A stretch of DNA of 42,619 bases from Patescibacteria group bacterium. Lineage in GTDB: Bacteria; Patescibacteriota; Patescibacteriia; Patescibacteriales; GWC2-42-12. Below, piece by piece: positions 3,146 through 27,700 of this stretch (positions are counted from its first letter, which is position 1; the number at the start of each line of letters is the position of its first letter). The notes under the pieces were generated by a model that was not told the DNA's origin, did no database searches, and saw only the letters and a program-made list of their open reading frames with translations. Where the stretch lies: assembly GCA_028703305.1 (NCBI GenBank), contig JAQVNC010000007.1, positions 1 to 42,619 of the forward strand, given 5' to 3'. The translations under genes were made by a program, and so were the position numbers.

Positions 3146-3150
3146 TTTTT

Positions 3151-3178
3151 GTCATTCCCGCGCAGGCGGGAATCCAGG
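3151..3178. repeat. ATTCCCGC/GCGGGAAT palindromic repeat, groES leader
   Basis: Second copy of the palindrome at 2760-2786, differing by one loop base (CAGG for CAAG). It would form a hairpin in the groES 5' leader, between CIRCE and the start codon. Confidence 0.8.
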
Positions 3179-3215
3179 AGTGTACACGCTAAAGTTTATT
3201 AATTAATAATTTAAT

Positions 3216-8184: not shown

Positions 8185-8206
8185 ATATATAATTTAAAAT
8201 TTATAA

Positions 8207-8307
8207 TATCAAATAAAATTTAATGGCCGTAGAGCCCCGCCCGCCACGCAAGACGAGCTTGCGAGGCGTTGCGGGCAGGTTTGCTCGCTATTAAATTTTA
8301 TTTGATA
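8207..8307. repeat. Inverted-repeat element in the atpH-atpA spacer (copy A)
   Basis: Perfect 18-bp arms TATCAAATAAAATTTAAT (8207-8224) and ATTAAATTTTATTTGATA (8290-8307) enclose a 65-nt GC-rich core. The core starts GGCCGTAGAGC, continues GCCCGCC and holds nested inner pairs (CGCAAG/CTTGCG; GCCCGC/GCGGGC). The element at 26826 has the same core opening and is followed by the same tail. Confidence 0.85.
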
Positions 8308-8360
8308 CAATATATTTTTTGAAAGTATTGAAAACTTTTTCTAAAAAAGTTTTCAAAGGT
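8304..8360. repeat. Conserved tail of copy A with TTGAAAAC hairpin
   Basis: The text from GATACAATATATTTTTTGAA to the end of the spacer is nearly identical to 26879-26935. It contains the inverted repeat TTGAAAACTTTTT / AAAAAGTTTTCAA. In both places it directly follows the stop codon of the upstream minus-strand gene (atpH here, nadK there). Confidence 0.8.
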
Positions 8361-8762
8361 TTATTTTATTAATTTATCTTTTAAATCAACTAATTGCGTT
8401 TTTAAACTTCCGTCAACCACTCTATCGCCATATCTTATTACCACTCCGCCTAAAATATCTTTATTAATTTCCCGGCTTAACATAACTTCTTTGGCGCCGG
8501 ACAATTTAACAATATAATCTTTCAATAATTTAACGGCCGGCTTTTCAAGCACTTTGGCGCTAACCGCCCGCGCTTCCACTATGCCGTGTTTATTATTCCA
8601 GATTTTTATAAATTCAGCTGTGATTTTTTCCGCTTTGGACAGCTGATTATTTTCCGCTAAAATTTCCACGAATTTTTTAATAACAGCTTTAACCTGATTA
8701 GGCGACTTGCCGTCAACCGTTTCATACAAACTTAAAGCAAATTGTTTTATGGTAATTTTCAT
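8361..8762 (-). CDS. atpH: F1 ATP synthase delta subunit, short form
   Basis: Peripheral-stalk cap that joins F1 to the b subunits. The C-terminal part is convincing: GGVVIRYGDRVVDGSLKTQLVDLKDKL (positions about 105-131) matches the family signature. At 133 residues it is about 45 shorter than E. coli delta (177). Aligning from the C-terminus, the loss is at the N-terminus, so part of the six-helix bundle that grips the alpha subunits is missing. The start is fixed: atpF ends 1 nt upstream, leaving no room for a longer frame. Short delta subunits are plausible in reduced genomes; there is no sign of a frameshift. Confidence 0.88.
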   Translation of the reverse strand: MKITIKQFALSLYETVDGKSPNQVKAVIKKFVEILAENNQLSKAEKITAEFIKIWNNKHGIVEARAVSAKVLEKPAVKLLKDYIVKLSGAKEVMLSREINKDILGGVVIRYGDRVVDGSLKTQLVDLKDKLIK

Positions 8763-11723: not shown

Positions 11724-11733
11724 AAGTCATTTT

Positions 11734-11773
11734 GTCATTGCGAGGAGCGTCAGCGACGCGGCAATCTCACGAA
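11734..11773 (+). repeat. Solo GTCATTGCGAG-type repeat, sua5-tatD spacer
   Basis: Forty nucleotides reading GTCATTGCGAGGAGCGTCAG then CGACGCGGCAATCTCACGAA. This is the left arm of the paired elements at 17092 and 18657 without a right arm. Confidence 0.8.
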
Positions 11774-11798
11774 CATTAATTATATTTAATACTCACCA

Positions 11799-12389
11799 CT
11801 ATTTCCTGATAATTTTTATATCCTCCATATCTCTTAAGTCCACCAGCCTTGAAGATTTAGTTCTTTTACATTCACCCGCGTCAATTACTAAGTCGGGCGG
11901 ATATTTAAAATATTTATCAAGATTTTCCACTTTAGTTAAAGTTTTATCGCCTTTCTTGTTTAAACTGGTGGAGACAATCGGAAAACCGGCCTCATTTATT
12001 ATTTTAATTAAAAAATCATTATCCGGCAATCTAACGGCTAAACTATTTAAGCCGCCGGTTAATTCGACCGGCAGATTCGGCCGGCGTTTTAAAATTACCG
12101 TAACCGGTCCGGGCCAAATCTTTTTTAAATATTCCAGCTGCGTTGAATTAACAAAGCAATATTTTTTTAGCATGCTAAAATCGCTGATTAAAATTAACAG
12201 CGGCTTCATTCCCCTCTCGCCTTTAATTTTATTTATCTTTTTAATCGCTAAAATATTGCGGCAATCACAGCCCAAGCCGTAGACCGTGTCGGTCGGATAA
12301 GCGATTATCTGGCCGTGGCTTAAAGAATCAGCGATTAAATCAATTTGCTCTTGGGTTGTATTATTTATGTCTATTTTTATGGTTTGCAT
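11799..12389 (-). CDS. tsaC: L-threonylcarbamoyladenylate synthase (Sua5/YrdC/TsaC)
   Basis: Makes threonylcarbamoyl-AMP from threonine, bicarbonate and ATP, the first step of the universal t6A37 tRNA modification. 196 residues, single YrdC domain without the C-terminal Sua5 domain. Key segments are IIAYPTDTVYGLGCD (about residues 28-42), KIKGERGMKPLLILI (about 54-68), the motif WPGPVTVILKR (about 93-103) and PIVSTSLNKKGD (positions about 136-147). The ATG is 5 nt after the stop of the ATP-grasp gene, so both are probably on one transcript. I use the TsaC symbol because the protein is short. Confidence 0.93.
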   Translation of the reverse strand: MQTIKIDINNTTQEQIDLIADSLSHGQIIAYPTDTVYGLGCDCRNILAIKKINKIKGERGMKPLLILISDFSMLKKYCFVNSTQLEYLKKIWPGPVTVILKRRPNLPVELTGGLNSLAVRLPDNDFLIKIINEAGFPIVSTSLNKKGDKTLTKVENLDKYFKYPPDLVIDAGECKRTKSSRLVDLRDMEDIKIIRK

Positions 12390-17079: not shown

Positions 17080-17091
17080 ATGATTATATTT

Positions 17092-17217
17092 GTCATTGCG
17101 AGGAGCGTTAGCGACGAAGCAATCCCACGTATTATAATCTTTAGCAAAATATTACCACCTTAATTTTAAGTTATCATTCGTGAGATTGCTTCGCTCCTTT
17201 TAGTCGCTCGCAATGAC
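17092..17217. repeat. Paired GTCATTGCGAG inverted-repeat element, downstream of metG
   Basis: Left arm 17092-17129 (GTCATTGCGAGGAGCGTTAG then CGACGAAGCAATCCCACG) faces right arm 17179-17217 (CGTGAGATTGCTTCGCTCCT then TTTAGTCGCTCGCAATGAC). The about 50-nt centre is AT-rich and contains ATTACCACCTTAATTTT. The same arms and the same centre word occur at 18657-18781 on the other side of metG. Confidence 0.85.
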
Positions 17218-17226
17218 ATCTTTAAA

Positions 17227-18645: not shown

Positions 18646-18656
18646 ATTCTTGCGTT

Positions 18657-18781
18657 GTCATTGCGAGGAGCTTCAGCGACGAAGCAATCTCACGAATAAA
18701 AATATTTATAAATAATTGCCACCTTCATTTAAACAATTCATCAGTGAGATTGCTTCGCTCCTTTCAGTCGCTCGCAATGAC
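18657..18781. repeat. Paired GTCATTGCGAG inverted-repeat element, upstream of metG
   Basis: Left arm 18657-18696 (GTCATTGCGAGGAGCTTCAG then CGACGAAGCAATCTCACGAA) faces right arm 18744-18781 (GTGAGATTGCTTCGCTCCTT then TCAGTCGCTCGCAATGAC). The centre carries ATTGCCACCTTCATTT, matching the centre of the element at 17092. Confidence 0.85.
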
Positions 18782-18788
18782 AGGAATA

Positions 18789-19545: not shown

Positions 19546-19640
19546 AGGCTTGGTAAATTATTTTTATCGCGCATATGAAATTGTAGCGACCGCAGGGAGC
19601 CCAAATTTCATCTAAGCAGAAAAAATAATTTACCTAAGCC
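19546..19640. repeat. Inverted-repeat element upstream of rsmI (copy C)
   Basis: Outer arms AGGCTTGGTAAATTATTTTT (19546-19565) and AAAAATAATTTACCTAAGCC (19621-19640) match apart from a one-base indel. Inner arms ATGAAATT (19575-19582) and AATTTCAT (19604-19611) surround a GC-rich core TGTAGCGACCGCAGGGAGCC. The arm sequence is unlike those of the other copies. Confidence 0.75.
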
Positions 19641-25931: not shown

Positions 25932-26028
25932 TTGGGCTAAATTTGTAAAATTTTCGTGCGAGGACTGTGTGAGGCCGCCAGCAGGCGGACGAGTTCCGAG
26001 AGGAGTAAATTTTATAAATTTAGCCCAA
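25932..26028. repeat. Inverted-repeat element in the typA leader (copy D)
   Basis: Arms of 22 nt: TTGGGCTAAATTTGTAAAAT plus TT (25932-25953) and AAATTTTATAAATTTAGCCC plus AA (26007-26028), with one mismatch. The core contains GCGAGGACTGTGTGAG, an inner GCCGCC-AGCA-GGCGG hairpin and CGAGTTCCGAGAGG. In the minus-strand typA transcript it would form one long stem-loop just before the start codon. Confidence 0.8.
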
Positions 26029-26151: not shown

Positions 26152-26814
26152 CTATTTACCTCCTGATTTTTTTACCGGCTGTTTTATCTTTTTTCCAAGA
26201 TCGGAAAAATTCCTTAAGCCCTGCCATCTTTTTCTAAAATCTTCCGCGTCCAGGTAGCCGGAAAATTTATGGTACTGGGAATGAGTATTTTCCACCCGCC
26301 TGGCATATTTTATCGGGCACCAAAATCTTTCCGTGCGGCCGCCGATTTCCACCGCGTAACGAAAAACATTATTAACATAACTGCAGTAAAGGCAATTAAA
26401 TTTTTCCAGCCAGTTAAGATAAGGCAAAAGCTGGCGGTCGTAGACAAAAAATTCTTTTTTATCAACCAAGGGGATGCCGTAAATTCTAAAACAAACTTGA
26501 TGGTAAATTTCCAGGCAGATGCTGAAAAATACTGTCGGGAAAAACATGCCGTAAATAAACGGCATGCTAAAAATATATTTAAAATTAAGCGGCCAAATTG
26601 TTTTAAAAACCCCAATCCGCCAGCTTTTTAGCTGTTCGCGCCTTAGCTCAATTTCTTTTTTTAAATTTTTTCTTCCGACTACTGATTCAATGGCGCTGTT
26701 AAAAGCTCGGCGGACTTCGTCATTTAATCTTTCCAATTTATTGGCGCCGATTTCTTTGCTCTCAATAATGGACTGCTCTACTTTTTTAATTCTTTCTAAA
26801 AGTTCTTTTCTCAT
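26152..26814 (-). CDS. Conserved-looking protein of unknown function with CxxC and CPIK motifs
   Basis: 220 residues. The N-terminal 65 residues are a charged helix, likely coiled coil (MRKELLERIKKVEQSI onward). One or two hydrophobic segments follow (about 83-108, FIYGMFFPTVFFSICLEIYH). The C-terminal half carries YLNWLEKFNCLYCSYVNNVF (about 132-151), then GGRTERFWCPIKYARR (about 158-173). I recall the pattern NCxYCSYxN...RTExxWCPIKxA from proteins of unknown function in other bacteria. The three cysteines could bind a metal or heme. It follows nadK, separated by an inverted-repeat element; a TATAAT sits 5 nt before the ATG at the edge of that element. Confidence 0.75.
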   Translation of the reverse strand: MRKELLERIKKVEQSIIESKEIGANKLERLNDEVRRAFNSAIESVVGRKNLKKEIELRREQLKSWRIGVFKTIWPLNFKYIFSMPFIYGMFFPTVFFSICLEIYHQVCFRIYGIPLVDKKEFFVYDRQLLPYLNWLEKFNCLYCSYVNNVFRYAVEIGGRTERFWCPIKYARRVENTHSQYHKFSGYLDAEDFRKRWQGLRNFSDLGKKIKQPVKKSGGK

Positions 26815-26825
26815 AATTTATTATA

Positions 26826-26881
26826 ATCAAATAAAAATTTTATGGCCGTAGGGCTTTGCCCGCCATAAAATTTTATCTGAT
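26826..26881. repeat. Inverted-repeat element after nadK (copy B)
   Basis: Arms ATCAAATAAAAATTTTATGG (26826-26845) and CCATAAAATTTTATCTGAT (26863-26881) pair with one indel and one mismatch. The core GGCCGTAGGGCTTTGCCCGC is itself a hairpin (GGGC-TTT-GCCC). The core matches the opening of copy A at 8207 (ATGGCCGTAG, GC, GCCCGCC). Confidence 0.85.
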
Positions 26882-26935
26882 ACTTTATATTTTTTGAAAG
26901 TATTGAAAACTTTTTCTGAAAAAGTTTTCAAAAGT
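26879..26935. repeat. Conserved tail of copy B with TTGAAAAC hairpin
   Basis: Nearly identical to 8304-8360, including the inverted repeat TTGAAAACTTTTT / AAAAAGTTTTCAA (26903-26931). It abuts the nadK stop codon. Confidence 0.8.
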
Positions 26936-27700
26936 TTAAACGTGCCAACGTTTTAATTCAAAATCATAGCCCGGCTTAAAAGCCAATTTAACCGCTTCTC
27001 GGCTCGGCTTAACTTTAAACTTTTTAACTTTGGTTAAAATTTTACCATGGTCGGCATAGGCCGTGGCTTGGCCTCTCTCTATTTCAACGGTTATTCCCTG
27101 ATCCGGAACAACGGCGCGCAAAGATTTTTTGGCGCAAACGGATTTTATGGCCAGCTGATTGGCGCCTAAAGAAATAATAGCTCCGCCGGCCGCGTAATTA
27201 TAAGCCGTACTGCCCTGGGGCGTGGAAATAATAATGCCGTCGCCGTCAAACTCATGTTTGGGAAAATTTTTATCTCCCCTGATAGTGCCGATAATGCGTT
27301 CATTGCCTTGAGTTGCTTTAATATAAAAATCATTAAAAGCGTAAAAACTTTTTACTTGGCTCGAGCCCGCCGCGATAAAATCGCCTTGCAGCATGTTAAG
27401 CTTAATTAATTTGCAAAGGGAAAAATTTAAAAAAACTTCGGCTAATTCTTCGGCCGAATCAATTTGATTTAATAAAAATCCGCTGGTTCCGCAATTAATG
27501 CCGAAAAAAGGCTTATTGTATTTTCTAAACAAGCTGATGGCGCGAAGCAAAGTGCCGTCGCCGCCGGCCGCCACAAAAAAATCCGCTGGCGCCGGCTTAT
27601 TAACAAGCTTAACCAAGCCGGCCAACCCTTTACCCTTAAACCACTTATTTATCTCTTGGCTCCGCTTATCTTGATTTGTCAGAAGGAAGGCTTGTTTCAT
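26936..27700 (-). CDS. nadK: NAD kinase
   Basis: Phosphorylates NAD to NADP with ATP (or polyphosphate in some members). 254 residues, slightly short for the family. The signature GGDGT is in FFVAAGGDGTLLRAI (about residues 42-56), the second motif is GINCGTSGFLL (about 68-78), and the NAD-binding segment is DGIIISTPQGSTAYNYAAGG (about 154-173). I start at ATG 27698-27700 (MKQAFLLTNQ); a TTG five codons upstream is possible. It diverges from pyrH, 81 nt apart, so the two share a promoter region. Confidence 0.93.
   Translation of the reverse strand: MKQAFLLTNQDKRSQEINKWFKGKGLAGLVKLVNKPAPADFFVAAGGDGTLLRAISLFRKYNKPFFGINCGTSGFLLNQIDSAEELAEVFLNFSLCKLIKLNMLQGDFIAAGSSQVKSFYAFNDFYIKATQGNERIIGTIRGDKNFPKHEFDGDGIIISTPQGSTAYNYAAGGAIISLGANQLAIKSVCAKKSLRAVVPDQGITVEIERGQATAYADHGKILTKVKKFKVKPSREAVKLAFKPGYDFELKRWHV

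Follow-up and report, generated by a model that had tools for sequence, protein, structure and literature searches.

The stretch of DNA analysed here, called the window in the following, is 42,619 nt long. Within it, the spacer between atpH and atpA (positions 8185-8360) contains a composite inverted repeat, and a second copy lies between nadK, whose stop is at 26936, and a gene of 220 amino acids (26152-26814). Pfam matches confirm the names of atpA, atpH (OSCP/delta) and the NAD kinase gene. Because the atp genes are on the minus strand, the + orientation of the element is antisense to atpH and atpA. The features of the two copies are the following.

8207-8360, + strand: copy 1, atpH-atpA spacer (covariance model match 8206-8357, E ~4e-14)
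8207-8224, + strand: left arm of helix P1, perfect 18-bp pairing with 8290-8307
8225-8289, + strand: core, GGC-CGTA (bulge)-P2-GCT
8232-8235 / 8283-8286, + strand: helix P2 (GAGC/GCTC), with a 47-nt GC-rich loop, the usual loop being 3 nt
8290-8307, + strand: right arm of P1, partner of 8207-8224
8312-8328, + strand: hairpin B, ATATTTTTTGAAAGTAT, the weakest helix, with no double changes
8328-8356, + strand: hairpin C, TTGAAAACTTTTTCTAAAAAAGTTTTCAA, adjoining the atpH stop
26826-26935, + strand: copy 2, spacer between nadK and the 220-aa gene (covariance model match 26824-26932, E ~3.5e-16)
26826-26843, + strand: left arm of P1
26844-26864, + strand: core, GGCCGTAGGGCTTTGCCCGCC
26865-26881, + strand: right arm of P1, pairing with the left arm except for one A.C mismatch and a one-base bulge
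26886-26931, + strand: tail hairpins B and C

The perfect 18-bp arms around a GC-rich core that an earlier note had described at atpH-atpA were indeed found, and the tail adjoins the atpH stop (8361-8363, minus strand), although it measures 53 nt (8308-8360) and not 57. The nadK copy, presented there as a twin, has the core opening GGCCGTAG in common with the atp copy, and over 84 nt their tails show 90% identity, but the two are just two of 27 copies in the genome. The arms, said to be self-complementary in both, pair perfectly in the atp copy only, given the mismatch and the bulge in the nadK copy. The P2 loop of the atp copy is 44 nt longer than in other copies. For the palindromic tail motif, 0 matches are expected in shuffled sequence.

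Anatomy and distribution of the element

The element is ~108 nt long overall (range 105-165 nt). It consists of helix P1 and two tail hairpins, all AT-rich, together with a core of the fixed form GGCCGTA-[P2]-CGCT. In the + orientation a P1 arm of 17-18 bp is followed by GGC, a CGTA bulge, P2 (4 bp with a TTT or TCT loop), GCT and the second P1 arm, and GCT closes with GGC through the pairs G.T, G-C and C-G. The 3' part after P1 consists of A(T/C)AC-N-TTATATTTTTTG hairpin B, hairpin C and AAAGGT. About a dozen copies carry additional small CCC(C)-GGG(G) hairpins, each 15-20 nt long, which interrupt the loop of B, the loop of C or the stretch separating these two hairpins.

L047, L050-L052, L074, L089, L093 and L100 bear hairpins of the form TTTATCCCC-TTGC-GGGG, small inserts that occupy as many as three set positions of the element, and their presence or absence differs between orthologous copies. 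At L083 and L073 (both in G003) the tips are replaced by similar CCCCGCAAATGCGGGG hairpins, twice within L083.

A DNA search followed by a genome-wide covariance model, a check proposed in the earlier note, gave 27 full copies in the source genome (925 kb in 37 contigs). In total 64 distinct copies were gathered, nearly all within one order. The genomes were drafts, one per species, with genes called as the longest open frame, and copies within one genome are related, so that the counts do not represent independent events. Congeners have 1-2 copies and other members of the family 0-9. Across the order the distribution is sporadic (16 of 111 genomes), and in a class-wide sample the element was found in 5 of 381 genomes, the source genome included, one of the five being outside the order. 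It is thus present in other genomes of the clade, whereas the earlier note would have abandoned its reading had they lacked it. When 84,980 genomes were scanned for the exact pattern, the matches were Patescibacteria/Parcubacteria records and one Proteiniphilum hit (L091), which the covariance model does not match and which was treated as chance. No match to the element was found in IMG/VR or in phage and plasmid collections, and Rfam covariance models gave nothing on it at the gathering score.

Placement at gene ends

At stop codons, 43 of the distinct copies are antisense to the gene and 4 are sense, 9 being unscorable. In the 43 antisense copies hairpin C lies no more than a few bases from the end of the minus-strand gene, whose stop codon is in several cases inside the end of this hairpin, and the following gene mostly starts 3-21 nt past P1. 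Five copies in rRNA spacers are all antisense: 23S-5S spacers are occupied in G018, G046, G008 and G021, with another copy just upstream of the 23S gene in G021. Three copies among tRNA genes in G022 have the sense direction. The 23S-5S spacers of many relatives are short and devoid of the element, and others have different palindromes at the same spot.

In the source genome the occupied junctions include rplW-rplB, rpsC-rplP, infC-rpmI, rpmI-rplT, rpmF-nusB and atpH-atpA, with further sites in the rplJ upstream spacer and at eno and pil genes; about 10 of the 27 copies flank ribosomal-protein genes (names read from translations). The whole element occupies rpsS-rplV in two genera (G006 and G010), and a sense copy at rpsO is conserved in two genera. 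In a third genus (G007) the rpsS-rplV spacer (L133) holds a remnant of one P1 arm, TTAAATTTTAACTTGATA, which is probably a deletion scar.

The earlier note had proposed that the copy before atpA could tune the ATP-synthase subunit ratio. In Escherichia coli an mRNA structure at atpHA controls the translation of atpA, and the mRNA is likewise structured at this junction here. In contrast to E. coli, however, this position is not conserved here, and all 17 relatives examined lack the element at atpH-atpA. Their spacer is either empty (9-16 nt, in G007, G009 and G020) or, in most relatives, filled by unrelated fold-backs, of at least six kinds by our own reading. With the same scoring, fold-backs were counted at 4/18 atpB-E, 14/18 atpE-F, 6/17 atpF-H, 9/18 atpH-A, 3/14 atpA-G, 2/10 atpG-D and 5/12 atpD-C junctions. 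Ribosomal-protein operons offer the same picture, and in the source genome the element is also found at about 25 other junctions. Since atpH-atpA in relatives holds unrelated repeats or nothing, and fold-backs are about equally frequent at other atp junctions, the proposal on the subunit ratio fails. The atpH-atpA copy is most likely an insertion that is tolerated, and any influence on the mRNA would be local at most.

Other palindromes were observed in the window. A second dispersed family, TTGTCATTGCGAGGAGC...GCTCGCAATGACA (11732-11799, 17090-17218 and 18655-18782), fills operon spacers too and sits at atpH-atpA in G006 and G008. A third consists of GTCATTCCCGCGCAAGCGGGAATCCAG repeats (2756-2791 and 3147-3182), with related forms at atpH-atpA in G003 and in ribosomal-protein gene spacers of relatives. 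Two more long AT-arm palindromes, at 25932-26028 and 19552-19634 (arms GGGCTAAATTT... and GGTAAATTATTTTT...), have GC-rich cores unrelated in sequence. Composite hairpins with exchangeable cores may constitute a wider class in the DNA of this window.

Conservation of the fold and a possible strand preference

In the source genome, the two arms of P1 mismatch at 2.5% of their pairs within a copy, whereas the same arm differs by 12-14% between copies, which agrees with the earlier statement that the arms vary but remain self-complementary. The corresponding values are 0.9% versus 24-25% for P2 and 2.0% versus 10-11% for hairpin C. Across the copies the P1 arms diverge by 12-22%, the bulge and the junction by only 2-5%. 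Double changes were found at 13 helix pairs, versus 7.2 +/- 1.3 in shuffles, and in 61 double-change cells, versus 20 +/- 4 in shuffles and 0-3 with slid partners, so that the covariation exceeds both column composition and the shifted controls. Hairpin B showed no covariation.

For eight protein-gene junctions, two genomes carry the element at the identical position, and the proteins encoded on both sides match. Among the pair differences at these orthologous junctions and in one 23S-5S pair, 19 are double, 11 one-sided and 12 broken, a tally that comes from few orthologous pairs and omits the G003 pair, whose hairpin tips are replaced. The compensatory changes indicate that the fold evolves in place. 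As the arms vary and yet stay self-complementary, with paired substitutions in both dispersed and orthologous copies, we conclude that the fold is maintained. The earlier note had suggested selection for the fold or a mobile element and had staked its reading on paired substitutions in the arms; the substitutions observed speak for it.

Among the imperfect pairs of P1, P2 and C, 26 are of the G.U type and 7 of the A.C type when read on the + strand, where the junction pair is G.T; part of the count for hairpin C is alignment noise. P1-P2 folds better on this strand in 60 of the 64 copies by comparison of minimum free energies (MFE), mainly through the junction pair. This is suggestive of the strand antisense to the genes being the relevant one, whether as RNA or as single-stranded DNA; we keep to this wording because the MFE contrast is strong for P1-P2 only and is largely driven by the conserved junction pair.

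Relation to known repeats and probable origin

Integron attC sites lie after stop codons in a fixed direction and have free arms, a conserved folded bottom strand and extra-helical bases. The element is similar in its siting after stops, fixed direction, free arms, conserved folded strand and extra-helical bases, but its flanks are core operon genes and not cassettes, and the AAC/GTT triplets of attC arm ends are absent from most copies.

GTAG REPs have a tetranucleotide at the end of the palindrome, a unit of 20-40 bp and a REP-associated tyrosine transposase (RAYT) gene flanked by the repeat (PMC3733652, PMC8266576). Like GTAG REPs and REPINs, the copies studied here are short, scattered palindromes that mostly follow coding regions, with GTAG beside a hairpin and a strand-specific folded form (PMC3733652, PMC8266576). 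In contrast to them, the element has three hairpins, variable arms, no linked RAYT and tens rather than hundreds of copies; GTA(G) is bulged inside P1-P2, ~20 nt from the end, and the unit measures 105-165 nt. By size and end tag it is therefore not a GTAG REP as published (PMC3733652). The one RAYT-like gene of the genome (contig C15) has a different repeat at its start. Directly ahead of the RAYT-like Y1 transposase gene at L088 (39-677), and again within the frame of this gene, lie GCGGTCGGACCGC repeats. No paper in the literature searched joins Patescibacteria with REPs.

Bacterial MITEs such as NEMIS, RUP and ERIC are non-coding intergenic sequences of 70-300 bp that lie beside coding sequences and are patchily distributed (PMC3733652). 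The element is alike in its size, lack of coding capacity, patchiness and dispersed intergenic copies. It differs from them in that the long inverted repeats do not form its ends, the tail lying beyond them, that the arm sequence is not conserved (12-22% variation), and that no parent IS was found. It was therefore not classed as a classical MITE, its own-genome copies moreover showing no duplication. Overall, it functions most like these dispersed palindromes, REPs and MITEs.

The explanation that we consider probable is a new non-autonomous, MITE/REP-like interspersed repeat that spread in an ancestor, was mostly inherited vertically and is constrained in its fold. It would have spread in the ancestor of a Falkowbacteria-like family of Patescibacteria, where a structure-recognising mobilisation system, lost or not identified here, may have set it at the stop-codon ends of transcribed operons. 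It would then have persisted where harmless, chiefly inherited in place, its pairing presumably maintained through selection on the folded strand, to which palindrome correction may have added. The 27 dispersed copies and the patchy distribution make a mobile origin likely, as the earlier note had proposed. The copies, their patchiness, placement and direction and the fold are observed, whereas mobility, recognition of the folded strand and near-neutrality at atpH-atpA are inferred. Target-site duplications were not detected among the own-genome copies (p = 0.68), and all copies together gave a weak signal by fixed offset. Against this explanation, no transposase with the element's ends, no recent identical copies and no clean empty site in a close relative were found, and persistence at one and the same junction in different genera, together with compensatory changes, is more than a neutral insertion would require. 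G010 (7-9 copies; 98% complete) and G012 both lack a Y1/RAYT-like mobiliser, the sole candidate examined.

Several other readings were weighed against this interspersed repeat. The direction may stem from the way in which the element inserts or from the loss of sense copies that interrupt expression. Such purging, which concerns the direction only and is compatible with the preferred explanation, is possible but somewhat doubtful. On the + strand P1-P2 (~-29 kcal/mol) is followed ~8 nt later by TATATTTTTTG, so that a sense insert would give the transcript a strong hairpin and a T-rich stretch, and sense copies are few within operons; yet four of them persist between genes, the rpsO one in two genera, and the T-stretch is separated from the stem, which makes it no canonical terminator. 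Rather unlikely in our estimate is a mobile element recognised as a folded single strand that docks behind stop codons and rRNA ends, takes its direction from transcription and is linked to no known transposase. We regard as unlikely a cis-acting RNA of polycistronic transcripts, in which the hairpins, including those at atpH-atpA, would be processing (RNase III-like), stabilising or translation-insulating signals. Nearly all copies lie in transcribed operon spacers abutting stops, others in 23S-5S and 16S-23S spacers and tRNA clusters, about 10 of the 27 own-genome copies flank ribosomal-protein genes, and the fold is kept at orthologous junctions; but the better-pairing strand, with G.U instead of A.C, is antisense to the transcripts, and the sites are patchy, the same junctions in relatives being empty or occupied by unrelated repeats.

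It seems quite unlikely that mutation alone, through template switching or quasi-palindrome correction, keeps the arms complementary while the fold is free of selection. The many A-T to T-A flips, the matched indels in both arms and the few intermediates fit such a process, but in 61 of 63 copies the G.T junction pair of the same helix has escaped correction, and across genera the unpaired core is nearly invariant while the arms vary. Palindrome correction could still add to arm homogeneity, sparing the G.T pair. Least probable is a REP sequence moved by a RAYT: GTAG precedes P2, the own-genome copies show no target-site duplication and one Y1/RAYT-like gene is present in the genome, but GTAG is internal and not terminal, the element has ~108 nt against 20-40, the RAYT-like gene bears the other repeat, GCGGTCGGACCGC, and G010 keeps its copies with no Y1 gene.

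Patescibacteria with tiny genomes are usually described as compact. Here a 0.93-Mb genome of this group carries a real new repeat family, and the ends of core-operon genes (ribosomal proteins, ATP synthase, rRNA) are filled by folded repeats of several unrelated families. The covariance model, the 64 distinct copies and the orthologous sites are enough to test how the element arrived, why it faces one way and whether it affects operon expression.
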